The translations under genes were made by a program, and so were the position numbers. The notes under the pieces are model-generated. The model had not been told where the DNA came from. It worked only from the letters and a program-made list of their open reading frames with translations, and ran no database searches. A DNA stretch of 44,938 bases, taken from IMG/VR virus record IMGVR_UViG_3300050014_000137, positions 1-44,938 of that record; one strand, given 5' to 3'. The stretch is from a virus. Shown here piece after piece: positions 21,593-42,575 of this stretch; the stretch's first letter is position 1, and the number at the start of each line of letters is the position of its first letter.

Positions 21593-21621
21593 TTGACAAT
21601 AAACGCAGTAGGGTGTAGCAT
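21593..21621 (+). promoter_or_regulatory. Promoter of the methyltransferase operon
   Basis: -35 TTGACA (21593-21598, perfect), 17-nt spacer, -10 TAGCAT (21616-21621), immediately after the previous gene. The leader of about 85 nt ends with AGAAGGAGCAGG before ATG 21714. Confidence 0.6.
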
Positions 21622-21713
21622 CGTAGAAGTAAGGGTGCGCGGGTGCGTCGGCTACAGGTACGGCCCGCGACCGAGAGTCATAGGACAAACACAACGACAG
21701 AAGGAGCAGGACA

Positions 21714-21944
21714 ATGGCACAGGCGACACGGCAGGATTGGGTTCCGGTAGTACCAGCGGTCGAGAGTTACACGCTGAGTCTCACGCCCGACGAGGCGGAC
21801 ACGCTCAGCGCGATGTTCACCAAGCATGTTGCGCCGGGACACATGATCCAAGCCACCAAGGCCGATGTGACGCCATTGGACTTCCCCAAGCCGGGCGAGA
21901 GCATGGACATGGATTGGGACACCGGACGGAGGCGCAAGTCATGA
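21714..21944 (+). CDS. Hypothetical acidic protein, 76 aa
   Basis: Starts MAQATRQDWVPVVPAV; has a helix LTPDEADTLSAMFTKHV and an acidic, Met/Asp-rich segment (ESMDMDWDTG) before a basic tail. An excellent GGAG Shine-Dalgarno. It overlaps the methyltransferase ATG by four bases (ATGA). Unknown family; an inhibitor or partner of the next enzyme is possible. Confidence 0.6.
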   Translation: MAQATRQDWVPVVPAVESYTLSLTPDEADTLSAMFTKHVAPGHMIQATKADVTPLDFPKPGESMDMDWDTGRRRKS

Positions 21945-22672
21945 CCGAGGCGTGTGCGCGGGTCGTTCATGGTGACTTCCGCAATCACTTCGGGTACTCC
22001 CGACTGCCGGGTCTGGTGTTCTCTGACCCGCCCTACAATCAGGGCTACCACTATGACGAGTACCGCGACAGACTGCATGAGGACGAATATGCCGCGCTGC
22101 TGCGGTATGCGTTCTCCGGGCATCGCGCCGTGGTCATCCACTACCCAGAGGAAACCATCAACGTGCTCGGCCCTATCCTCGGAGCCTGCGAGCAGGTCGT
22201 CTCATGGGTCTACCCGTCGAACACGGCAAAGCAGTCTCGGCTTGTGTCGTGGTGGGGGTGTGCGCCCGACCTCCGACGCGTCGGGCAGGACTACAAGAAC
22301 CCAACAGACAAGCGTATCGCCGCACGCATCGCTGACGGAAAGCGTGCACGGCTCTACGACTGGTGGAACATCAATCAGGTCAAGAACGTGAGCAAGTCGG
22401 GCAACCCGCATCCGTGTCCGATACCCTACGAACTCGCCCGTCGCGTGATACTCACCACAACCGAACCGGGGGAGCTGGTGGTGGATCCTTTCTGCGGAAG
22501 CGGCACCATCCTCCGCGCCGCGCTCGATTGCGGACGCAACGCGCTCGGGTTCGAGATAGATGCGCGCTACGCCGAATATGCGGCAGCATCACTCGACACC
22601 ACCTCCCATGGCGCGGGTTTGCCGGACTATGAGGATATCATCATCGGACGCGGCACCATCTACTTCGACTAA
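21941..22672 (+). CDS. DNA methyltransferase (amino-methylating, beta-type)
   Basis: A 243-residue enzyme. SDPPYNQ (residues 28-34) is catalytic motif IV of N6-adenine / N4-cytosine methyltransferases, and VVDPFCGSGTILRAA near residue 185 is the AdoMet-binding motif I. Motif IV preceding motif I is the beta-class order. The target recognition region lies in between (residues 60-170) and cannot be read. No restriction enzyme is encoded nearby, so it is likely an orphan that protects phage DNA or marks sites. Confidence 0.88.
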   Translation: MTEACARVVHGDFRNHFGYSRLPGLVFSDPPYNQGYHYDEYRDRLHEDEYAALLRYAFSGHRAVVIHYPEETINVLGPILGACEQVVSWVYPSNTAKQSRLVSWWGCAPDLRRVGQDYKNPTDKRIAARIADGKRARLYDWWNINQVKNVSKSGNPHPCPIPYELARRVILTTTEPGELVVDPFCGSGTILRAALDCGRNALGFEIDARYAEYAAASLDTTSHGAGLPDYEDIIIGRGTIYFD

Positions 22673-29237: not shown

Positions 29238-29323
29238 ATGGATACACGGTTGAACCCATCGCGCGCAGTCTCGTGGTAGACTTCATCGAGACGTGGCATT
29301 CTACCGAGACGCGGTGTAAGTGA
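29234..29323 (+). CDS. 29-aa peptide, possible truncated gene
   Basis: Encodes MNGYTVEPIARSLVVDF then IETWHSTETRCK. The pattern R-x-x-x-x-x-F-(I/V)-x-x-WH-x-S recalls the first residues of phage acyltransferase/Mom-type modification proteins (usually WHYS), so it may be the stump of a larger gene. It is ATGA-coupled before and TGATG-coupled to the primase after, so it may survive as a coupling ORF. Confidence 0.45.
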   Translation: MNGYTVEPIARSLVVDFIETWHSTETRCK

Positions 29324-31719
29324 TGACCAACTATCCTACCATCCCACCCACACTAGCCGCCGCCCCCAACTGGCTCGGCTACCGATTGGTAGATACTGGC
29401 AAGGGGCGATTGTCCAAGCCGCCGGTGTCGCCCAAGACGGGCATCGTGTGTGCCAAGAACGACATCACGAACTTCACCACGCTCGAAGAAGCACTCGTCG
29501 GCATGGAGCGGTACGATCTGGACGGCGTCGGCTTCGTCTTCACTGACGGGTTCGTCGCCATCGACCTTGATGACTGTTTCGACGAGACAGGCGCGCTTCT
29601 CCCTGTGGCGCAAGATACCTTCGACCACTTCAGCGGCACATACTGGGAGTACAGCCCCAGTGGGAACGGGTTGCACGGATTCATGGAAGGCGTCAAGCCC
29701 AACAACCGGACCAAGGATGCCGCGCTCGGTATCGAGGTCTACTCCAATGGGAACTTCGTGACCGTGACCGGCGACCGTGTCGAGGGGTCTGGAACCGACG
29801 CGCTGCCGATGCAGGACGCGCTGGACTGGATATATGAGACCTATCTGCCGCCCATCATCTCAGCAAACGCAGAAGAACGCCCCGTCGAGCACGGCACCCG
29901 CACGCCGCAGGAGTGGCTGGCGCTGGGACTGGCGCGCGACGAGAAGTTGATGACCGTCTACAACAACACCGACCACGGCGGAGACGAGTCCTCGACCGAC
30001 TTCTCGCTCATGTCGAAGTTGGCCTACTGGCTCAACCGTGACACCGCCGCGATGACCGAGGCGTTCATGGCATCCCCGTGGGTCCACACCAAAGACGCCG
30101 CGCATTCCAAGAAGCTCGAACGCTCCGACTACATGCCGGACTCGATTGTCAAGGCCGCTGCGATGTGCAGCACCACGGCATTCGAGACCTCGAAGCTCTA
30201 CGAGACGAAGGCGGTGCGGTTTTTCAGTCAAGCGGGAAGTGACGACATCGAGGACTTCCCGCTGAAGGACTACACCGATCTCGGCAACGCCGCCACGCTC
30301 GCGCAGATATTCGGGGACGGCCTGTGCTATACGCCTCAGTGGGGTTGGTGTTTCTTCAACGGGTCGCGTTGGGAGACCGATGTGCCGTACCGCGCGATGA
30401 ATGCCGCGCGTGACATCGCCCAAGCGTTGACCGATTGTGCGAAGGCACGGCTGGACCGAGCCACCGAGGAAATCGAGGCGGACGGCATCTCGGCGCAATC
30501 CGACGAGGGGAAGCGTCGGCTGAAGCCCGCGCACGCGCTGTACGACCACGCTATGAAGTCACAGAGCGAGCACGGCATTACGGCGATGGTCGCACTCAAC
30601 AAGGCATACATGATTGCGTCCGCCGACAACTTCAACATCGACCCGTGGTTCCTCAACACGCCGTCCGGCGTCGTGGACCTCAAAACCGGCGAGTTGATGC
30701 CGCACGACGCGAAGTACCGGCTGACCTCGATGACGAGCGTCGCTCCGGCCAAGGTGCCGACGCCGATGTTCAACGCCTTTCTCGACAAGGTCTTCTGTGG
30801 AGACGCCGAACTCATCGAGTTCGTTCAGCGCTCTCTCGGTTCCGCCCTCGTTGGTAAGGTCTACACCGAAAACCTCATCATAGCCAACGGATGTGGGTCT
30901 AACGGCAAGAGTACGCTATTCAATACGATGCAGTATCTCCTAGGAGATTATGCCACGAGCATCGACCCGAACCTGCTCATGTCGTCCAAGGCGAACGAGC
31001 AGCAGGTCGGCATGGCGATGATGGAGGGCAAGCGTTTCGCGGTGGCACAGGAGACCGAGGAAGGTCAACGCCTGTCGTCGTCCATGCTGAAGCGCATCGT
31101 ATCGACCGACATGATGGTAGCCAAGAAGCTCTACAAAGACCCGCACGAGTTCATCCCGTCGCACATGCTTGTGCTGTCCACGAACCATCTGCCGAAGATC
31201 AGCAGCACCGACACCGGCACATGGCGACGCATCGTCGTCCTGCCGTTCGAGGCGACTATCCGGCCCGAGGAGATAATCACCGACTTCCACTCTATCCTGA
31301 TGGAGCGTGAGGGTCCGGGCATCCTTCAGTGGGTCATCGACGGCGCGGTCAAGTTCTACGAGATGGGCTGTGACATCCCCATCAAGCCCGCCGCCGTGGT
31401 GCGTGTCAGCGCGGAGTATCGCGTCGAGGAGGACTGGGTCGCGGGATTCCTCGGAGAGTGCTGCACACCGGGAGACCCGCACAACGAGGCCATCATGGTC
31501 AAGCACAACGACCTGTACCGCATCTACCAGCATTGGGCGAAGAACCGGGGCGAGTATGTCCGGAGCACCAATGCGCTCAGTCGTGCGCTTCAGACGGCGG
31601 GATTGCGCGGAAAGCAGAAGTTCTACGACCCCGAGACCAAGGCGACAATCAAGATATGGTTCGGGTTCCAGTTGCTTGACGGTGGACGATTCACACTGAC
31701 ACAGGGGAGTGCCAAATGA
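29323..31719 (+). CDS. Bifunctional primase-helicase (PrimPol-like + D5/SF3 helicase)
   Basis: A 798-residue replication protein. The N-terminal 170 residues are primase-polymerase-like: AIDLDD (Asp81, Asp83), SGNGLHGF and IEVYSNGNFVTVTGD. A linker leads to a D5-type region and a superfamily 3 helicase: Walker A CGSNGKST (Lys529), Walker B-like FAVAQETEE (577-580) and motif C VLSTNH (Asn621). It would prime and unwind DNA at the fork. GTG 29320 is an alternative start; ATG 29323 overlaps the previous stop. The methyltransferase that follows overlaps by four bases. Confidence 0.9.
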   Translation: MTNYPTIPPTLAAAPNWLGYRLVDTGKGRLSKPPVSPKTGIVCAKNDITNFTTLEEALVGMERYDLDGVGFVFTDGFVAIDLDDCFDETGALLPVAQDTFDHFSGTYWEYSPSGNGLHGFMEGVKPNNRTKDAALGIEVYSNGNFVTVTGDRVEGSGTDALPMQDALDWIYETYLPPIISANAEERPVEHGTRTPQEWLALGLARDEKLMTVYNNTDHGGDESSTDFSLMSKLAYWLNRDTAAMTEAFMASPWVHTKDAAHSKKLERSDYMPDSIVKAAAMCSTTAFETSKLYETKAVRFFSQAGSDDIEDFPLKDYTDLGNAATLAQIFGDGLCYTPQWGWCFFNGSRWETDVPYRAMNAARDIAQALTDCAKARLDRATEEIEADGISAQSDEGKRRLKPAHALYDHAMKSQSEHGITAMVALNKAYMIASADNFNIDPWFLNTPSGVVDLKTGELMPHDAKYRLTSMTSVAPAKVPTPMFNAFLDKVFCGDAELIEFVQRSLGSALVGKVYTENLIIANGCGSNGKSTLFNTMQYLLGDYATSIDPNLLMSSKANEQQVGMAMMEGKRFAVAQETEEGQRLSSSMLKRIVSTDMMVAKKLYKDPHEFIPSHMLVLSTNHLPKISSTDTGTWRRIVVLPFEATIRPEEIITDFHSILMEREGPGILQWVIDGAVKFYEMGCDIPIKPAAVVRVSAEYRVEEDWVAGFLGECCTPGDPHNEAIMVKHNDLYRIYQHWAKNRGEYVRSTNALSRALQTAGLRGKQKFYDPETKATIKIWFGFQLLDGGRFTLTQGSAK

Positions 31720-32924
31720 CAACGGTCAACATTTATCACGGGGATGCTTGGGAACTCGCTGAGGACTTGGCGCTATCAGCGCCACAGTCCATCAACACCA
31801 TCGTCACGTCGCCTCCGTACTGGGGTCTGCGCGACTACGGCGAGCCGGGGCAGTTCGGGTTGGAGGCAACGCCCGAGGAGTATGTCACTAAGTTGGTTGA
31901 CCTGTTCGCGCTTCTGCGTCCTGCACTTCGTGACGACGGCACAATCTTCTTGAACCTCGGGGATTCCTACTTCACGAAATCTGCGTCCGGCCGTCTTCCC
32001 ACATCGGGTTCATCGCGCCAGGCTGACCGCAACTCAGACGCCACTCCTGATCCCGTGCCGACGCGGTCCCTCGGAGACGCGCCGATTCCCGCATCTCTGG
32101 AGTCCACGCCGACCGAATCTTCTCCGCTACGCCCGGCAGACTCCCGCCCGTCGGATACGCCTTCGGTTTGCCTGCTGTGCGGGACGACATTAGCGCCCGG
32201 TGCTCGGGAGTCCGCTCATACGCCGGGTTGCACTTGCGGCACTGAGCAGACTTCGGGCCCATTGGGGCACCGCACGTCGGGCATGGATTCTTCGGACTTG
32301 GCATACCCACATTGTACCACACAATCCCTCAAGCCGAAAGACCTCATCGGCATCCCGTGGCGAGTCGCGTTCGCGCTCCAAGCGGACGGCTGGTATCTGC
32401 GGCAGGACATCATCTGGCACAAGCCGAATCCGATGCCGGAGTCCGTCACCGACCGCTGCACGAAGTCGCACGAGTACATCTTCCTGCTGTCTAAGTCTCC
32501 GCACTATTACTTCGATCACGAGGATATCAAGGAACCGGCGGTGTCGGGATACAAGTCATCAGACTTCATACCGAAGTCTGACAAGGACAAGGCGTTGCTT
32601 GATTCGAGCATCCAGACTTGTGCTACAGGCGCATCGTCTAACAACCGTACAGACGAGCATGTATCAACCCGTAACAAACGCGATGTGTGGACGGTGCCGA
32701 CCGCTCCCTTTGCCGCCGCACACTTCGCCACGTTCCCGCCCGCACTCATCACCCCATGCGTACTTGCGGGTTGTCCCGAAGGTGGAACGGTTCTCGACCC
32801 ATTCGGAGGTAGTGGTACGACTGCGATGGTCGCTCGTGACAACGGACGCAACGCCATTCTGTTCGAGTTGAATGCAGAATACATCGAGATAGCACGGACG
32901 CAACGACTGGGGGAGACGGCATGA
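31716..32924 (+). CDS. DNA methyltransferase (N4-cytosine/N6-adenine) with odd internal insertion
   Basis: A 402-residue enzyme. TSPPYWGLRDYG (Ser32-Tyr35) is motif IV; DPFGGSGTTAMVA near residue 360 is motif I. Conserved blocks are also seen in LNLGDSY (about 80-86) and LKPKDLIGIPW (about 205-215). Between them, residues 87-203, lies a Ser/Pro/Thr-rich region with six cysteines that does not look like the rest. The antisense strand of that stretch reads as the N-terminal part of an HNH homing endonuclease. Residues on both sides are in frame, so the enzyme may still be active. Confidence 0.88.
   Translation: MTTVNIYHGDAWELAEDLALSAPQSINTIVTSPPYWGLRDYGEPGQFGLEATPEEYVTKLVDLFALLRPALRDDGTIFLNLGDSYFTKSASGRLPTSGSSRQADRNSDATPDPVPTRSLGDAPIPASLESTPTESSPLRPADSRPSDTPSVCLLCGTTLAPGARESAHTPGCTCGTEQTSGPLGHRTSGMDSSDLAYPHCTTQSLKPKDLIGIPWRVAFALQADGWYLRQDIIWHKPNPMPESVTDRCTKSHEYIFLLSKSPHYYFDHEDIKEPAVSGYKSSDFIPKSDKDKALLDSSIQTCATGASSNNRTDEHVSTRNKRDVWTVPTAPFAAAHFATFPPALITPCVLAGCPEGGTVLDPFGGSGTTAMVARDNGRNAILFELNAEYIEIARTQRLGETA
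31972..32304 (-). pseudogene. Relic HNH homing endonuclease on the antisense strand of the methyltransferase
   Basis: From ATG 32304 the minus strand encodes about 110 residues: a zinc ribbon (CPTCGAPMGPKSAQCRKC), a helical linker (TPEHRALMSSR, SAWTPEMRESARLRG) and NPMWEDGRTQIS. These phrases are typical of the N-terminal half of phage HNH endonucleases, in which NP-x-W-x-(G/D)G is followed by the HNH domain. That domain is missing here. A TGG-TACAAT extended -10 (32311-32316) ends 6 nt before the ATG, as at other leaderless starts in this genome. An alternative start at 32322 lies upstream of this box. Confidence 0.6.
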
Positions 32925-33145
32925 ATCCCAAGCGCAGATCGCTCGATGACCTGTTCGATCCTCTCGATGACGACGAGGAAATGGACGAGTTCGACGGGTT
33001 CGTCATCATAGAGGTTGACACGCCGGACAGTATGTGGGAGACTCCACTATGCCTGTTCGGATTGGGCGATGGCGATGGGCGTTGTGCAAAGGACAGGTTC
33101 GGATGCCACATCGAGGGGTGCGAATACGCGACCCGACTAGACTAA
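32921..33145 (+). CDS. Small acidic protein, 74 aa
   Basis: Starts MNPKRRSLDDLFDPL followed by an Asp/Glu-rich run (DDDEEMDEFDGF). It ends with three cysteines (GRCAKDRFGCHIEGCEY). ATGA overlap with the methyltransferase; 13 nt before the polymerase. Function unknown; a DNA mimic or polymerase partner is conceivable. Confidence 0.6.
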   Translation: MNPKRRSLDDLFDPLDDDEEMDEFDGFVIIEVDTPDSMWETPLCLFGLGDGDGRCAKDRFGCHIEGCEYATRLD

Positions 33146-33158
33146 AGGACAACGGCAC

Positions 33159-35894
33159 ATGACACAGCAAATCTACTTCTACGACACCGAGACATTCGCA
33201 CACGACAATCTGCATGTGATGAAGCGGCAGAGTGACGGAGCGACCTACTCATTCTGGAATGACAACGAAGGTGTGCAGGACTTCATCGTGCTGCACAACC
33301 CAGTCTTGTGCGGGTACAACGCGCGAGACTATGACGCCTACATCTTGAAAGCGACCCTGCTCGGTTGGACACCCGAGGAGATCAAGGTCGTCAACGACAC
33401 CATCATCCACGAGGACGACCGGACGATGGTGTGGCGGCTGTTCGACGGGTCCGCATGGGTGGAACTGCCACCCATCATCGACCTGTTCCCCGATATTGTC
33501 CCACGCAAGGGTCTCAAGGAGATCGAGGCCAACATCGGCATGAGCATCGTCGAGTCGAGTGTGCCGTTCGACATCGACCGACCGCTGACAGCAGATGAGC
33601 GCGAGGAAGTGCTGCGCTACTGCATCCACGATGTCAACGCGACGAAGCGCCTGTACGACCTGCGTTTCGACTATCTCAAGAGCAAGTCGGACCTCTGTGA
33701 ACTCAGAGGCGTCGATCCGCTGACGATGCTGAAGCACTCCAACGCCCGCATCGTCTCCGAGGTCTTCGAGGCGCAGCGATTCCATGCCCCGTTTGAGACC
33801 TACACTATCCCCGACAACATCGACCTCACGGCGATTCCCGAAAGTGTCATCAAGTATGTCGGTAAAGTCAACACTGACAACTGTACCGACACGCAATCCG
33901 AGAGTCTGCCGTTCCTATTCCACGGATGCCCGACCGTCGTGGGGCTGGGTGGTATCCATGCCGCCGTGCCGTCCTACAAGGAGACGGCGACCGATGAGCG
34001 TGCCATCCTGATTCAAGACATCGGATCGTTCTACCCGTCGCTCATCCTCAACAACGGCTACATGAGCCGCGCCGTGGCGGATCCGAGCGCGTACCGGCAG
34101 TTCTACGACATCCGGATGAAGGCCAAAGCGGACGGCGACAAGGCTACCGCCGAAGCTGCGAAACTCGTGCTGAATACGACCTACGGCACGATGAAGGACA
34201 CCTACAACAAGATGTTCGATCCGATGCAGGGGACGCTGGTCTGTCTTTCCGGTCAACTCTACATCATCGACCTCATCGAACAGATGTACCGCGCAGCAGG
34301 AGACGGCCTGACGCTGGTGCAGCTCAACACTGACGGATGGATCATCTCGTGCCCTCGCTCGTCTGTATCGACCGTACAGCGCATCGTAGAGGCATGGCAG
34401 CAGAGAACGAATCTGACGGTGGAGACCGACGAGGTTGAAACCATCGTTCAGGCGAACGTCAACAACTATGTCCTCCGGTTCGCCACAGGTAAAGTCAAGG
34501 CGAAGGGTGGCGTCGTCGCCAAGTTCGAGGGTGGGGACTTCAAGTCCAACAGCGCGACCATCATCGACAAAGCGGTGGTGGACTATCTACTTGACGGCGT
34601 GCCGGTCGAGACCACCATCAACGAGTGTGACGACATCGAGCGATTCCAGATAGTCGCCAAAGCCGGATCGTCGTTCAGCAAGGTCGTGCAGCAGCAGTTC
34701 TATCCCGATAGTGAGTCGGCAGCGAATCCCGTCGAGATTGAGGTCCAGCGCGTCAACAGGGTGTATGCTACGACCGACCCCTTCATGGGTGGCATCTTCA
34801 AGGTCAAGATGGAGAAGTTGGACGTCACCGCGCACGGCGACAGTTACGATAGGTTCGTGGACGGCGTCGAGACGGCGCGTCAACGCATCCCGCTCACACC
34901 TGAGCGTTGTTTCGTGGACAACGAGAATCTGATTCAGAAGTCAGGAAAAGGCTTGACAACACTGGACCGCGCATGGTACATTTCATTGGCACAGAAGAAA
35001 GCCCGTGAGTTCGTGACCCGTGATAAGAAGGAGAAGGAGCAAATGGCGGAGACAGCGGAAAAGACCAATGAGTTGCAGCAGGGCGCTGAGGCACCGAAGC
35101 CGACGCGCAAGAAGGCCGAGTCCGTAGTCGAGCCGACGCCCGTTCCGTCGTTCAAGGAGCGTCTGTTGGCGCTTCAGGGTGACATGGCGAAGGCCGCAAG
35201 TGGAGTCAAGTTCGACGGTGTCGTGAGCAACATCAACTATGAGTATGCCGATACCCAGCAGTACAAGGCATGGTTGTCCGCGCTCTGCACGAACCACGGC
35301 ATCATCTTCAAGTTGGCTATGACATGTCAGTTCCTCGGCATCATCTCGCCAGAGAAGGACAAGGCTCTTTACGCGGCACAGGCCGATGGGGAAGTCGAAC
35401 TGGTAGACGCATACGGCGATGGATTCATGCGCTATATGGTATCCGGTTTCGGCAGCAACTATCAGCCGGGATACTGCAACGGTGGCGCGCAGACCAACCT
35501 GCTTCGCAACTTCATCCTCAACAACTTCCTGCTCGACAACAAGGGCCGCGAGGGTGACGATCAGGTGTTCAACGCCGCGACCGACAGTGGCAGCAAGGTG
35601 GGATATGTCGCCCCCGCTGAGAAGGCCCAGATGAAGCAGGGCATCGCGGATGGCAAGGCCGAGGACGCAAAGTACGCGACCGACATGTTCGTCAAGGCGC
35701 TGTACGACAAGATTATCGAGGCTCAGAAGTACAAGCCTGACTTCGGTGCCAAGATGATTTCCGAGCACTTCACTGAGGATGGCACGCCTGTCCTCGGAGC
35801 GACCGGCAAGTCCACGATGCTGAAGCAGACCGCCGTCACGGGTCTGACGAAGTCCGAGGAGATCATCGCTGAGGGTGCGAAGGTGGCCGAGTAA
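33159..35894 (+). CDS. Family B DNA polymerase fused to ERF-like ssDNA annealing protein
   Basis: 911 residues. Residues 1-628 are a family B polymerase: exonuclease motifs YDTET (Asp9, Glu11), NARDYD and YCIHD (Asp158); polymerase motif A DIGSFYPSL (Asp287), motif B K335-x(3)-N-x(2)-YG (342-343) and motif C NTDGW (Asp392), in place of the usual DTDS. It ends with LDRAWYISLAQKKAREF, the normal C-terminus of such enzymes. Residues 629-911 begin MAETAEK and, after a Lys/Pro-rich linker, resemble an ERF-type annealing protein (SFKERLLALQGDMAKA, INYEYADTQQYKAW). No stop separates them. An internal promoter and doubled Shine-Dalgarno precede Met629, so the second part may also be made alone. Confidence 0.88.
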   Translation: MTQQIYFYDTETFAHDNLHVMKRQSDGATYSFWNDNEGVQDFIVLHNPVLCGYNARDYDAYILKATLLGWTPEEIKVVNDTIIHEDDRTMVWRLFDGSAWVELPPIIDLFPDIVPRKGLKEIEANIGMSIVESSVPFDIDRPLTADEREEVLRYCIHDVNATKRLYDLRFDYLKSKSDLCELRGVDPLTMLKHSNARIVSEVFEAQRFHAPFETYTIPDNIDLTAIPESVIKYVGKVNTDNCTDTQSESLPFLFHGCPTVVGLGGIHAAVPSYKETATDERAILIQDIGSFYPSLILNNGYMSRAVADPSAYRQFYDIRMKAKADGDKATAEAAKLVLNTTYGTMKDTYNKMFDPMQGTLVCLSGQLYIIDLIEQMYRAAGDGLTLVQLNTDGWIISCPRSSVSTVQRIVEAWQQRTNLTVETDEVETIVQANVNNYVLRFATGKVKAKGGVVAKFEGGDFKSNSATIIDKAVVDYLLDGVPVETTINECDDIERFQIVAKAGSSFSKVVQQQFYPDSESAANPVEIEVQRVNRVYATTDPFMGGIFKVKMEKLDVTAHGDSYDRFVDGVETARQRIPLTPERCFVDNENLIQKSGKGLTTLDRAWYISLAQKKAREFVTRDKKEKEQMAETAEKTNELQQGAEAPKPTRKKAESVVEPTPVPSFKERLLALQGDMAKAASGVKFDGVVSNINYEYADTQQYKAWLSALCTNHGIIFKLAMTCQFLGIISPEKDKALYAAQADGEVELVDAYGDGFMRYMVSGFGSNYQPGYCNGGAQTNLLRNFILNNFLLDNKGREGDDQVFNAATDSGSKVGYVAPAEKAQMKQGIADGKAEDAKYATDMFVKALYDKIIEAQKYKPDFGAKMISEHFTEDGTPVLGATGKSTMLKQTAVTGLTKSEEIIAEGAKVAE
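34953..34982 (+). promoter_or_regulatory. Internal promoter before the annealing-protein segment
   Basis: TTGACA (34953-34958, perfect -35), 18-nt spacer, TGG-TACATT (-10 at 34977-34982) inside the polymerase coding sequence, about 60 nt before an internal ATG with a strong Shine-Dalgarno. It could give separate expression of the annealing protein. Confidence 0.5.
35028..35045 (+). promoter_or_regulatory. Doubled Shine-Dalgarno and internal start (Met629)
   Basis: AAGGAGAAGGAG lies directly before CAA-ATG at 35043, giving spacings of 9 and 3 nt. It falls exactly at the boundary between polymerase and annealing protein. The products would be the full 911-residue fusion plus a separate 283-residue protein. 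Confidence 0.6.
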
Positions 35895-35895
35895 C

Positions 35896-36069
35896 ATGCC
35901 GACACGCACTCAGCGGGAACAGCAGATGAACGTCGAGCGGGAGGACGTGCCTCCGACATGGGTCGAGGGCACCGAGACCGACAAGCCGGGACGCGCTGCA
36001 CGGCGCAAGGCCGAGCGTGCCGCACACCATGAGCGCAACCTGAAGATAGCGAGGATTCTCAATGGCTAA
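35896..36069 (+). CDS. Small charged protein, 57 aa
   Basis: Starts MPTRTQREQQMNVERED, ends in a basic helix (RRKAERAAHHERNLKIARILNG). It begins one base after the polymerase fusion and overlaps the exonuclease by 8 bp. Likely a small partner of the recombination module; no family recognised. Confidence 0.6.
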   Translation: MPTRTQREQQMNVEREDVPPTWVEGTETDKPGRAARRKAERAAHHERNLKIARILNG

Positions 36070-37111
36070 GTCCTTCAATCCGTGGGAGTACACCGAGGAC
36101 AAGACGCGAGTCCGCGTCGTCGGTGGCCCCACGAAGAACCCGAAGAAGCTCACGGGCACCCGGATCGGCGCGGTCCTCGGTCTGAATGGATACAAGTCGG
36201 ACTTCGGCGTGTGGTGCGAGATTGCGCGGGTGGCCGAGGAGCCGTTTACCGGCAACAAGTACACCGAGGCGGGTATCGCCATCGAGCCGAAGTTGGGCGA
36301 GTGGTGCAAGGAGAATATCAGCCCGTATATCGTCACGCCGGAACAGTGGTTCAAGACTTCGGAGAAGTTGTACGACCACTTCCCCAAGGAGCCGATATTC
36401 GGTGGCATGTGGGACTTCCTCGTGCTCGACGGGCCACTCGGCAAGGGCAAGCCCATCGGACTGGTCGAGACCAAGACCTCGTCCCGCCCGCAGGACTGGA
36501 CGGACGGTGTGCCCGCGTCCTACGCGGCTCAGGCGCTTCTGTACGCCGCGCTGCTCGGTGTGGACCGGGTATTCGTCCCCGTGGCATTCCTCGATCCACA
36601 GGACTACGACGACCCGTCATCCTTCGTCTGCACCGAGGACAACACCTTCATCTACGACCTGACGGTGTCGGGTAGTGACATCGTAAACATGATGGCCTGT
36701 GCGATGGACTGGTATGAAGCGTCTGTCGTCGGGAATGTCTCGCCTGTCTTCGACGAGAAGAAGGACAAGGTCTTTCTTGACATCATGCGTAAGAGCGAAG
36801 TCAAGAGCGACGGACTCGAAGCATTAGCAAAAGAAGCTGCTATTCTGGAAGCCAAAATAGAGGATGCGGTTGCTAAAGCGGGACTCGCTGAGATGGAGAA
36901 GTCGCTCAAGGCTATCAAGGACCGCATGAAGCCCGAGTTCGTCAAATTGTTCACAGACAAGGACGATGTCGTGTCGGCCTACGGCTGGAAAGTCAAGCGC
37001 ACGGACAGAGAGACTATTGACAAGGAGGCGCTGAAGCGGGATAATCTTCTAGCACAGTACACCATCTTCACCGCATCGTACACCATGACCAAGGAGAAGA
37101 ACAATGACTAA
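36062..37111 (+). CDS. YqaJ-like viral recombinase exonuclease
   Basis: A 349-residue PD-(D/E)XK exonuclease. Early motif GTRIGAVLGLNGYKS is the YqaJ signature; the catalytic line is GGMWDFLV (Asp118) and LVETKT (Glu136, Lys138), followed by YAAQALLYAAL with its Gln. The C-terminus is a long helical region (KEAAILEAKIEDAVAKAG). It resects double-stranded ends so that the upstream annealing protein can pair strands, which makes a Red/RecT-type recombination pair. It is also needed in some phages for packaging concatemers. Confidence 0.88.
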   Translation: MAKSFNPWEYTEDKTRVRVVGGPTKNPKKLTGTRIGAVLGLNGYKSDFGVWCEIARVAEEPFTGNKYTEAGIAIEPKLGEWCKENISPYIVTPEQWFKTSEKLYDHFPKEPIFGGMWDFLVLDGPLGKGKPIGLVETKTSSRPQDWTDGVPASYAAQALLYAALLGVDRVFVPVAFLDPQDYDDPSSFVCTEDNTFIYDLTVSGSDIVNMMACAMDWYEASVVGNVSPVFDEKKDKVFLDIMRKSEVKSDGLEALAKEAAILEAKIEDAVAKAGLAEMEKSLKAIKDRMKPEFVKLFTDKDDVVSAYGWKVKRTDRETIDKEALKRDNLLAQYTIFTASYTMTKEKNND

Positions 37112-37544
37112 CGTGGTCGGCAAGGGGAAGCCGCAGGGCTTCAAACTCATCGACGAGGGCGTCCAGACGCTTCACATCACGAATGTCAAGGGTCTTCCGC
37201 GCGACAATGTGACCGTCGTCACGATGGACATGCTCAACGCTGAAGGTCTCGGCTTCAACGGCAAGTACCCGCAGAAGTACGATCTGGCGAGTCAGGGCGG
37301 ATATGCGGCCTTCTACTTCCTCGTGCTCAACGGGTTCGGCATCGACCTGAACGAAGGCGACCAGTTCGACATCGACCATCTCGAAGACACCTATGTCGAG
37401 GTCGAGATCGTCCACAAGGACGGCACGAATCCGCGCGACGACGGCACGTTCCCGGTCTTCGCAAATATCAAGTCCACCATCGGCAAGGGTGTGCCATTCG
37501 ACGGAGCGGTCAAGGCTGCACCCGCTGAGGAGTGGGAGGACTAG
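37104..37544 (+). CDS. Putative single-strand DNA-binding protein with acidic tail
   Basis: 146 residues, mainly beta (KLIDEGVQTLHITNVKGL, VEVEIVHKDG), with the acidic, Trp-containing C-terminal tail AAPAEEWED, similar in style to SSB or phage DUF669-like proteins. It follows the exonuclease with an 8-bp overlap and precedes a nuclease. Role in recombination or replication is inferred from context and tail. Confidence 0.5.
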   Translation: MTNVVGKGKPQGFKLIDEGVQTLHITNVKGLPRDNVTVVTMDMLNAEGLGFNGKYPQKYDLASQGGYAAFYFLVLNGFGIDLNEGDQFDIDHLEDTYVEVEIVHKDGTNPRDDGTFPVFANIKSTIGKGVPFDGAVKAAPAEEWED

Positions 37545-37545
37545 C

Positions 37546-37860
37546 ATGGGTGAGGTCGAGTCGGCCATCCAGAAGCGCATCATCGGCTATCTGCGCGGAC
37601 TTGACCAGACTTATGTCGTCAACATCGGAGGAGGGGCATCGACCGCGAAAGGCACGCCAGACATTCTGGCGTGCCATCGCGGTCGGTTCGTCGCTTTGGA
37701 AGTCAAGCGGCCTGATAGCGACTACGGTTTGACCGTGCCACAGAAGATGCGACTGACGACCATCAAAGCATGTGGCGGCGTGACTGGGGTCGTCAGAACA
37801 CTCTCTGACGTGGTCGCCATCATCGCACAACTAGACGAGGAGGAACGGAATGCCGAATGA
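37546..37860 (+). CDS. VRR-NUC nuclease
   Basis: A 104-residue single-domain VRR-NUC enzyme: an N-terminal helix (EVESAIQKRIIGYL), then GTPDIL (Asp39) and ALEVKRP (Glu52, Lys54), the PD-(D/E)XK core. The length is normal for stand-alone phage members, which cut branched DNA such as Holliday junctions. GGAGGA lies 5 nt before the ATG. It may resolve junctions before packaging. Confidence 0.88.
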   Translation: MGEVESAIQKRIIGYLRGLDQTYVVNIGGGASTAKGTPDILACHRGRFVALEVKRPDSDYGLTVPQKMRLTTIKACGGVTGVVRTLSDVVAIIAQLDEEERNAE

Positions 37861-39143: not shown

Positions 39144-42100
39144 TTAGTCGATACTGACGACGGCGACACAGGTTGCGTCGGTTCCGCCGTTGAACGCTCG
39201 CTTGATACTTTGCATCACGACCGAGAGGTAGTTGTCCCACCGGGTCGTGAGAATCGGGGCGGTGGCCGAGACCACACACGCCGCGTCTCCGAGGATGTAG
39301 TTCCACACGCTGTACTCACGGTCACTGATGAGTTGGAGATTGACCACATCGCCCACCTTCAACTTCGCGTCGTCGCGCATCGAGAACTCGAACCGGGTAG
39401 ATGAATCCACGGCGTTGTAGTGGTCGAGCATTGCTATGAGTTGTGCAGGGTCGGACGCGATGTCACACTTGACATCCACCACATCACCCGAGGCATAGTA
39501 GGTCTTCTCGAAGTTCTGAGACGAGATGGTGACTTTCTTACCCGTCAGCGTGACGTGGATGGTCGTGCTAGTCGGCTCGACCGTGAACACCGTCGAGTAG
39601 GTGTTGTAGACCGGCGTCCCGCTGATGGAGCCGCCCGAGGTGATGTCCAGAGAACCGCTGTCGCAACCGTCGTGGGTGATGCGGACCTCGACCGGATCGG
39701 TGTTGACGAGCCGCAAATCTCCATCGAAAATCGTGCTCGTGGTCGCGTCGGCGGTGTAGAACGACAGAGTGCTCGTGAGTCGGTTGATGCGCGTTCCGGT
39801 GTCCGTCTTGGGGCGGTCATAGACCCGCATCTCCCCGACTGTGTAATCCGGTTTGTCGGTCAGCGTCGAAGTGACCGATAGAGACCCGTCATCCCGGTGG
39901 ATGAGATACGCGCCCACATAGGCCGCAAGCTGTGTCAGGGCTTCCCTGTGACTGACTGGCGGGATGGGGATGTACACGAGGACCGAATCAAATGCCGGGT
40001 CGATGGTGTAGTATGCGTGCCCATCCGTGTCCCACAGAACGAGAGAGTCTGAGACAAGGCAGGTATCCGCACCGAGGATGTAGTTCCAATGACCACGGAC
40101 AGGGAACCGCGCGCTGGTCAGAATCTCCTCGAACAGTGTGGACGCGGGAATCCCAGCAGGATCGTAGCGTCCGCCATAGAAGATGTCGGGGTCCATGACC
40201 GAGGTGAAGGACAGCCCCTTGAATGTCGCGTACAGGTCGTCGTCACTGACCGTCATTGGCTGAAGAATCTGCTGTGTCATCGGGACGGTCTCTATGACTC
40301 CATCGTCGTACCGATACCCGAGGGAGAGGCTGATGACGCCGGGAGCATCCAGTTTCTCAACAATATCAGGACGGACGAAATCGTAGCCCGTCGCAGGTTC
40401 GCCGTCGTACACCGCGTTCTCCACGACGACTTCGCAGGACTCGAACGGCAGAGTCGCGCGGGAATAGTCGAACTCACTGGTTATTTGCGCGGTGATGGCG
40501 TTCTTCGCCGTCAGGTTGTCCGCCAACCAATCATTTGTGACGGGAGTGGTGTCAACCATCTGATGCGTCTCAACGGTGCCGACAAGAACACTGGGGGCCG
40601 AAACATCGGAGGCTTGGTTGGTTTCCCAACTGGCAGAGTCGTGGACGAAGGGGCGCAGAAGGATGATGCCGTCGTGCGATGGGATGGTCACGGACGAGAC
40701 AGCAGAACCGTCATTGATGTCCGGCTGCTGTGATCCGTTGATTTTCGTATACGTTGCACCCAGCGCCACAGTCTGCGAGGCGTCGGTCGGGTTACACAGA
40801 TTGAGCGCGTGTTCGTACTCCCGAATCCACACGCCGCTTGGAAGCAGCGTGGGCGCGGTGCCGAGCGGCGCACCCATATACCCCTTGCCCGCGCCCGCGT
40901 TGTCGAACTCGTCAGCCCACAGCCGCGTGTTCACGTCGTGCCCCTGCGGTTCCCACAGGAAGGGTGCGCCGATCAGCAGGCAGGATGTGAGTCCGAAGCG
41001 CATCACGCGGTAGTCGGTGTCGCTTGGCGGGCTGGTTACGGCGTAGGGACCGAGGGAGGTGTAGGTCGGCGTGCGGCCCGCTGCGACCTCATCGAACATC
41101 GACATGTGGTCGGGCACGCTGTCGTAGGGTCCGCGTATGACGAGGTTCCACATCGCCAAGTCCCACGCGGCGGTCGGCTGCTCCTCGCGGTACGCACCGT
41201 CGTAGGCGGTCGGGTTCGGGACGGGCTGGTTCTCGATTAGGATTGCGTCACCGATGATGGCACGCAATTCACTTGAGATAGCACGCGCTCCCACGTTCCA
41301 CGCGGTGTTGAAGTCTGTGTAGTCGGTGACGAGCGTGTTGGAGCGGTCTACGTCGATGTTGCGGGTCTTGCCAGCGGCGACGATCCAGCCCTTGCTACCA
41401 TCAGCATCGTCAACCATGAGGCCGTCCCAATCAGAGGCGGCGAGCCACTCGCTATGGGATCGGATACAGTAGTCCACCCACGTTTCTGCGCCATGCCCCA
41501 CGTCAACCGTTGGGCAGACGTTTGTGAGGTCCATGACGGGCGTGGTCACGCCCCATATGCACACGACCTGCGCGATGCGTGAACCCGCCGCGTGCGTGTG
41601 TACGCCAGCGTTGCCGATGCCGCGTGAGTCGAGAGTCAGCGTTGAAGCGCCCACGGTGCCGATGCGCACCAACTCATAGTTGCCGTGCGTCTCGTCACCA
41701 ATGACAGCGAGTGACCCCTCATCGAACAGGTTCATCTCTGTCGCCGTAAGGTCAGAGGCGTAGAAGTCGGTTGCTTCTGTTCCGCCGTCGTAGCGAGAGA
41801 TGAACAGGTTGATGGTGGCGGCGCGTTCGGGCACGGCGTAGTAGCGAACCAGCTCATGCCATTCCCCGTCGAGCGCGATAATCTGGTTCCATGACGCGCC
41901 GGGGGCTGCGAATGCTGCGCCCTCTATGAATACATCATCGGCATCGCGCACTTCGTATGACGCGCCTATCCACCCGGTGCCGGTGCCCTTCATCCACAGG
42001 GAGTTGTAGAACAGTTGCCCCGGCGTCACGGACGCACTCTCGATGAGCGCGCCGAATGTCGCTCCCGTTGATTGCTGCACGCGAACGGCGCTGCCACCCG

Positions 42101-42575
42101 AATGACCCGCTGAACCGACGACAGTAACGGTCGCGTCGGTGTCGAACGCCCCGTACTTTGTGAAACCGTCCGGTACGCCGTCTGAGTTGCCGTCTACGAA
42201 ACTGCTGTTGAGTCCAGATTCCGTGGCGAACCTCATGGCGGCAGGCGTTACGATATATCCGGTCGTAGCGATGCTCGACGCCAGTGTACTACCGACATTC
42301 GTGAGCATCCACGCCGGTTGCGCGGCCTCGCCCATCGCAGGCAGGGGCCACGACGCGGGATCGACTATCGTCGGGTACACGGTCGTTTCGTCGTTGTTCA
42401 TACCGGTATTGCCGCCGAGAATCTTGATGGCGGGATTGATGGCGCGCACGGCAGCGTCGTAGGTCGGGTTACAGTCGCCCATCAGGTAGATGCTGTCGAA
42501 GCGGGCAGCGTCGGCTACCGGCCAGTTGTCGGTGTCGGACACGCCCCATATGGGGCCGGTGCGCGGGTAGTCCAT
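39144..42575 (-). CDS. Large tail-tip protein with glycoside hydrolase-like N-terminal half
   Basis: 1,143 residues. The N-terminal about 620 residues look like a TIM-barrel hydrolase related to GHL15: SIYLMGDCNPTYDAAVRA, IKILGGNTGMNN, then after a beta-sandwich insertion (about 110-290, SAGHSGGSAVRVQQ) DGLMVDDADGSKG and ILIENQP. The Asp/Glu in these loops are candidate catalytic residues. The remaining part is a baseplate or tail-tip-like region (VRPDIVEKLDAPGVIS, YASGDVVDVKCD, KLKVGDVVNLQL). It is likely the receptor-binding or wall-degrading component. It follows the distal tail protein and is the largest gene. Confidence 0.75.
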   Translation of the reverse strand: MDYPRTGPIWGVSDTDNWPVADAARFDSIYLMGDCNPTYDAAVRAINPAIKILGGNTGMNNDETTVYPTIVDPASWPLPAMGEAAQPAWMLTNVGSTLASSIATTGYIVTPAAMRFATESGLNSSFVDGNSDGVPDGFTKYGAFDTDATVTVVGSAGHSGGSAVRVQQSTGATFGALIESASVTPGQLFYNSLWMKGTGTGWIGASYEVRDADDVFIEGAAFAAPGASWNQIIALDGEWHELVRYYAVPERAATINLFISRYDGGTEATDFYASDLTATEMNLFDEGSLAVIGDETHGNYELVRIGTVGASTLTLDSRGIGNAGVHTHAAGSRIAQVVCIWGVTTPVMDLTNVCPTVDVGHGAETWVDYCIRSHSEWLAASDWDGLMVDDADGSKGWIVAAGKTRNIDVDRSNTLVTDYTDFNTAWNVGARAISSELRAIIGDAILIENQPVPNPTAYDGAYREEQPTAAWDLAMWNLVIRGPYDSVPDHMSMFDEVAAGRTPTYTSLGPYAVTSPPSDTDYRVMRFGLTSCLLIGAPFLWEPQGHDVNTRLWADEFDNAGAGKGYMGAPLGTAPTLLPSGVWIREYEHALNLCNPTDASQTVALGATYTKINGSQQPDINDGSAVSSVTIPSHDGIILLRPFVHDSASWETNQASDVSAPSVLVGTVETHQMVDTTPVTNDWLADNLTAKNAITAQITSEFDYSRATLPFESCEVVVENAVYDGEPATGYDFVRPDIVEKLDAPGVISLSLGYRYDDGVIETVPMTQQILQPMTVSDDDLYATFKGLSFTSVMDPDIFYGGRYDPAGIPASTLFEEILTSARFPVRGHWNYILGADTCLVSDSLVLWDTDGHAYYTIDPAFDSVLVYIPIPPVSHREALTQLAAYVGAYLIHRDDGSLSVTSTLTDKPDYTVGEMRVYDRPKTDTGTRINRLTSTLSFYTADATTSTIFDGDLRLVNTDPVEVRITHDGCDSGSLDITSGGSISGTPVYNTYSTVFTVEPTSTTIHVTLTGKKVTISSQNFEKTYYASGDVVDVKCDIASDPAQLIAMLDHYNAVDSSTRFEFSMRDDAKLKVGDVVNLQLISDREYSVWNYILGDAACVVSATAPILTTRWDNYLSVVMQSIKRAFNGGTDATCVAVVSID

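Follow-up and report, generated by a model that had tools for sequence, protein, structure and literature searches.

A single open frame of 911 codons, uninterrupted by a stop, joins a family B DNA polymerase to an annealing protein of predicted ERF type in the 44,938-nucleotide viral DNA analyzed here (the window). This Pol-ERF fusion is confirmed as a real observation, and a search among relatives found it in 27 other viral and bacterial contigs. We consider it fairly probable that the one gene gives two in-frame products, Pol-ERF and free ERF, which would co-assemble and couple annealing to extension. The making of both products is what we infer from conserved signals at the seam, and the mixed oligomers from annealase biology and endolysin precedents. 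A preliminary description of the window had proposed a frame running through a polymerase into an ERF-like protein, and its interpretation as a whole is supported. The features concerned are the following.

29320-31719, plus strand: primase-helicase, D5 type (D5_N 2.2e-27; phrog_1829 4.6e-129)
33159-35894, plus strand: Pol-ERF fusion gene, 911 amino acids
33159-35042, plus strand: family B DNA polymerase part with 3'-5' exonuclease, residues 1-628
34953-34982, plus strand: promoter-like site TTGACA-N18-TACATT with TG extension
35028-35045, plus strand: candidate internal ribosome binding site AAGGAGAAGGAG and start ATG
35043-35894, plus strand: ERF-type annealing part, residues 629-911, and predicted free ERF product of 283 amino acids
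36062-37111, plus strand: YqaJ exonuclease, presumed partner nuclease
37104-37544, plus strand: small gene of the same module, possibly SSB-like
37393-37860, plus strand: resolvase/VRR-type nuclease, the true start probably later than the ATG (phrog_93 1.4e-13; weak Hjc)

The two parts of the fusion protein

In a PHROGs search, residues 2-628 match phrog_1252 (E=1.5e-136) up to two positions before the profile end. The AF2 model of the whole chain has archaeal family B polymerases as its top PDB matches (E=1.6e-13), and the fold comparison with PDB shows the family B fold. Pol motifs A (DxxSxYPS), B (Kx3NxxYG) and C (TD) are present together with the acidic residues of Exo I-III, and D9, E11, D59, D158, D287, K335, N339, G343, T391 and D392 are invariant among the fused relatives. 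The polymerase part is complete, because unfused polymerases of the phrog_1252 family end a few residues past the motif WYxxLAxKRxxDF. The profile match, the fold and the invariant motifs thus bear out the proposal of a full polymerase with exo and pol motifs and a normal C-terminus. Polymerases of the same family are found, for example, in Enterococcus and Paenibacillus phages; those sampled stop at the polymerase C-terminus without an ERF part, whereas the gene of the window carries one. Between the two parts, residues 622-660 form a long, charged linker that is predicted to be disordered in the whole-chain model.

Searches with residues 629-911 alone gave no match to a Pfam or PHROGs family, the PF04404 (ERF) profile included. 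The AF2 model of this part has a mean pLDDT of 65.5, with most of the core at 75-88 and a disordered N-terminus and loop. The model shows the annealase fold (helix, three strands, helix). Foldseek against BFVD ranks annealing and ERF proteins at the top (best E 1.1e-7), and comparison with PDB gives RAD52 (E 1.6e-3, probability 0.97). A profile built from the window's clade only, with the linker taken out, matches the C-terminal parts of L092, L025 and L023 (E 1e-8 to 6e-7); no unrelated protein scores below E=1. L023 and L025 in turn match the Erf-like annealing protein family phrog_155 (6.5e-19 and 7.2e-16), and in the more distant fused relatives L026-L028 the PF04404 ERF domain is found at the same place above its curated cut-off. 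Direct alignment of the window's clade with these L026-L028 ERF members by hhalign falls short of significance (E=0.096), so that structure and transitive homology carry the identification. On this basis residues 629-911 most probably constitute an ERF/RAD52-fold annealing domain, the ERF-like character having been suggested by eye, and we can predict an ssDNA-annealing, ring-forming protein. It shares with the ERF superfamily (PF04404, phrog_155) its fold, transitive homology and a YqaJ partner nuclease; it differs in having diverged in sequence past direct detection and in being joined to a polymerase.

Since the window is a metagenome contig, a missed stop codon or an assembly error might be invoked for the joining of the two parts, and the polymerase part is indeed frameshifted in two relatives (L113 and L117). 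The frame is open through the seam in all 27 other fused contigs, among them isolate genomes, and we regard an artefact or a lost stop as ruled out.

Signals at the seam

The seam reads AAGGAG (35028-35033), AAGGAG (35034-35039), CAA and ATG (35043-35045), and this ATG has the strongest Shine-Dalgarno (SD) sequence among the 50 in-frame starts of the window's frame. Every fused member has an in-frame start just past the polymerase end, which is ATG but TTG in L028 and GTG in L094. Seam starts were compared in 23 representatives, which are related within clades and amount to about four lineages rather than 23 independent observations. Their SD strength averages -10.1 kcal/mol, versus -2.6 for 996 other internal starts, and the seam start ranks 1-3 of 29-62 in-frame starts in all 23. 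The codon after it always specifies Ala, Ser or Thr (23 of 23), compared with 20% after other internal starts. In the sister phage EL753P1, the free ERF gene begins at the equivalent Met.

AGGAGG lies 8-10 nt before the start at near-constant spacing, and across lineages it occurs in all three codon phases: as AGG-AGG (Arg-Arg) in L027, L092, L093 and L096, as GGA-GGA (Gly-Gly) in L099 and L113, and within AAG-GAG-GNN (Lys-Glu) in L026, L028 and L094. The residues encoded at the seam differ accordingly between relatives (KKEKEQ, RRTKQ, GGRKK). That the peptide changes while AGGAGG stays at the same spacing points to the RNA signal, and not the peptide, as what is conserved. A protease could alternatively cut the long protein within its charged and disordered linker, releasing polymerase and ERF as separate proteins. 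This is very improbable, as internal initiation fits better with a seam that keeps an RNA signal and has no conserved peptide. The conserved binding site and start codon are those of a gene with an in-frame internal start, and they are general across the fused clades; the SD-CAA-ATG initially noticed at the boundary thereby gains the backing of conservation in four clades.

SD strength was also compared with a synonymous-codon null, in which the amino acids are fixed and synonymous codons are drawn at random. Five members of clades 2 and 4 gave P=0.007-0.027. In the window's own clade P was about 0.4-0.7, the SD being no stronger than chance, because Lys and Glu residues force purines and leave little codon freedom. 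The pattern AAGGAG-N4-12-ATG occurs 13 times in the window, versus 1.9 expected, and several of these occurrences are at real gene starts. The seam signal, AAGGAGAAG followed by ATG, recurs at 37091-37106 within the 3' end of the YqaJ gene, where it serves as the start of the following gene (37104). It is therefore normal in this phage for a gene to begin within the end of the one before it.

The preliminary description had also placed a TTGACA-N18 promoter about 60 nt upstream of the seam, and this claim holds for the window's clade only. TTGACA covers 34953-34958 and TACATT 34977-34982, so that the site ends 60 nt before the ATG. A promoter scan of the region found 3 sites (0.8 +/- 0.8 expected), the seam site being the best with 10 of 12 positions and a TG extension. 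The TTGACA, which covers codons 599-600, is identical in 11 of 11 members of the window's clade, synonymous sites included; among columns with an invariant amino acid, only 2 of the 21 for Leu and 1 of the 10 for Thr use one codon throughout. The -10 element keeps its final T though residue 608 varies between Ile, Ala and Val, and an invariant third base is found in only 8 of 310 such variable columns. If these conserved features were independent, the joint chance of their invariance would be about 2e-4. When synonymous conservation is scanned in sliding windows, the promoter region belongs to the highest-ranking ones, but these windows alone were not taken as proof of a promoter because codons 787-797 rank equally high. 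The latter stretch, in the ERF part (about 35517-35549), contains 11 consecutive invariant bases. EL753P1 has TTGAAA-N17-TATATT with a TG at a similar place, and no comparable promoter was found in the other clades. The internal promoter thus appears confined to the lineage of the window, with a different one in the sister phage.

Conceivably, only the fusion is made and the internal start is left over from a time when the genes were separate, the ERF part then serving as an ssDNA-binding or processivity arm of the polymerase. The amino acids do account for the codon choice at the seam in the window's clade, and a Lys/Arg-rich linker by itself yields purine-rich RNA. A relic would be expected to decay, yet four clades retain the start codon, the Ala/Ser/Thr codon and AGGAGG although phase and residues have changed. 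The low P values in five members of two clades and the conserved promoter in a further clade also speak against this explanation, which we judge to be quite unlikely compared with the production of both proteins.

Relatives and neighboring genes

Scans of IMG/VR gave 13 contigs with an ERF part 52-70% identical to that of the window, all of them fused, and L023-L028, also fused, with polymerase identities of 36-42%. A scan of bacterial genomes added fusions in Paenibacillus alkalitolerans, Adlercreutzia mucosicola, an Eggerthellaceae genome, Criibacterium bergeronii, Lacrimispora defluvii and others. In total, 28 contigs are fused; they come from Bacillota, Actinomycetota and unassigned phages, and their polymerases fall into four clades. 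Fusion and internal start are common to all four clades and, judged from these comparisons, represent a conserved architecture. Two further candidates, Methanobrevibacter virus MSTV1 and Paenibacillus phage LincolnB, proved not to be fused when examined. Among the contigs, L091 (JAFDAS010000020.1), assigned to a Deltaproteobacteria MAG, agrees with the IMG/VR contig L007 in length, range and match coordinates, and its host assignment may be a binning error. In L113 (4960-8525) and L117 (5980-8967), which are bacterial MAG contigs, the frameshifts leave the seam and the ERF part intact and reflect either decay or assembly error.

In a tree of 75 polymerases obtained with a quick method, the ERF-linked ones form one branch (SH-aLRT 97), and 19 of the 23 on the tree are fused, over large divergence. 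A close comparison is Eggerthella phage EL753P1 (OP172808), in which homologous polymerase and ERF genes (EL753P1_00036 and EL753P1_00035, both annotated as hypothetical) are adjacent, in the same order and frame, and followed by YqaJ. They differ from the fused gene of the window in being two genes, the TGA of the polymerase and the ATG of the ERF being separated by one codon. The L100-type split of a Lachnospiraceae MAG likewise has separate polymerase and ERF genes in the same frame, parted by a stop codon. In other split cases the frames overlap (L098) or a gap of about 600 nt is present (L097). The split polymerases of clostridia retain a KPPKKNTRK tail. Because this tail is similar to fused linkers (KPEKKTRRK), it suggests that these genes descend from fused ancestors, i.e. 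that the fusion is old, the direction of change being not proven.

These relatives raise another alternative, in which both products are made, free ERF anneals independently, and the fusion is a neutral loss of a stop codon with a functionless tether. EL753P1 and L100 differ from the fused state only by the stop at the seam, and split phages evidently function. The retention of the fused state in most ERF-linked polymerases over so large a divergence, and the old fusion suggested by the clostridial tail, argue against neutrality, and we hold this alternative to be unlikely. A tether with a function in coupling annealing to extension remains our preferred reading.

Downstream of the fusion gene, the YqaJ exonuclease is recognized by Pfam (24.7 bits versus a 22-bit cut-off) and by phrog_434 (1.7e-24). 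All ERF-linked loci carry a homolog downstream of ERF. It is mostly the gene that follows directly, and in many loci it overlaps the ERF stop. At least one gene lies between ERF and YqaJ in L096, L097 and probably a few others, and L099 has only a fragment matching YqaJ. An exonuclease gene is thus adjacent to the annealase, as in two-component systems of the lambda Red type, and the assignment of YqaJ as the neighboring partner nuclease, made at the outset, agrees with this. The gene inserted in L096 (8529-9263; Criibacterium bergeronii) is PAPS-reductase-like. The next gene of the window (37104-37544) has no family match in Pfam or PHROGs; its position and inspection by eye suggest a single-strand-binding protein. 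Homologs of this small gene at the same place, and a resolvase-like nuclease, are present in many relatives' loci; the resolvase/VRR-type nuclease is found in most relatives. Most loci also have the primase-helicase in the same module, which in the window spans 29320 to 37860.

A proposed mechanism and its significance

Initiation at 33159 would give the 911-residue polymerase, tethered by the disordered charged linker to the ERF-type annealing protein. The ribosome binding site within the polymerase 3' end, with the promoter further upstream in the window's clade, would give the 283-residue annealing protein alone. The YqaJ exonuclease would resect ends to 3' single strands, which ERF would anneal to complementary strands. 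The tethered polymerase could then extend the annealed 3' end at once, annealing thereby priming replication or repair synthesis. Free ERF would probably be in excess and would allow rings or filaments in which only some subunits carry the bulky polymerase. It is a more tentative and somewhat doubtful proposal that a replicative polymerase sits in such a mixed Pol-ERF/ERF annealing ring and that annealing fed by YqaJ is a main primer of phage DNA synthesis. Our main doubt concerns the importance of the tether, which is not indispensable since split relatives exist.

A replication gene with long and short in-frame products sharing a ring-forming domain is known in phage T7, where gene 4 encodes a primase-helicase and a helicase; the enzymes are different from those of Pol-ERF and include no annealing protein. 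The annealases RAD52 and Red-beta form rings (PMC9989933, PMC8034648), and endolysin genes are known whose long and short products together assemble into a ring (PMC9430671). In the endolysins Lys170, LysIME-EF1, CTP1L and LysP7951, an internal in-frame start yields a C-terminal product able to co-assemble with the full-length protein, as proposed here (PMC9430671). These are lysis enzymes with unrelated domains, and both of their products were shown by experiment (PMC9430671), whereas those of the window's gene are predicted.

Both protein families and the in-frame two-product strategy are already known. The literature searched, to which two classic surveys of annealing proteins (Iyer 2002, Lopes 2010) did not belong, contained no description of an annealing protein joined to a family B polymerase and provided with a conserved internal start, and protein databases may list the architecture without comment. 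Pol-ERF physically joins annealing and extension, two steps for which studies of their coupling in phage recombination-dependent replication usually employ separate proteins. Should both proteins be produced, the endolysin strategy of two products from one gene would extend to replication. The natural fused and split versions, with a stop codon at the seam, offer a ready comparison of tethered and untethered function. The polymerase-annealase and its YqaJ partner could also serve recombineering in Bacillota and Actinomycetota.

Elsewhere in the window, the minus-strand gene at 39144-42575, in the structural half, encodes a 1143-residue protein with a marginal PHROGs match only and no Pfam match; it is perhaps tail-associated, and its N-terminal third looks glycoside-hydrolase-like by eye. 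Two different N6/N4 DNA methyltransferase genes, only weakly similar to each other, are located at 21593-22672 and 31716-32924 and possibly provide self-protection from host restriction.
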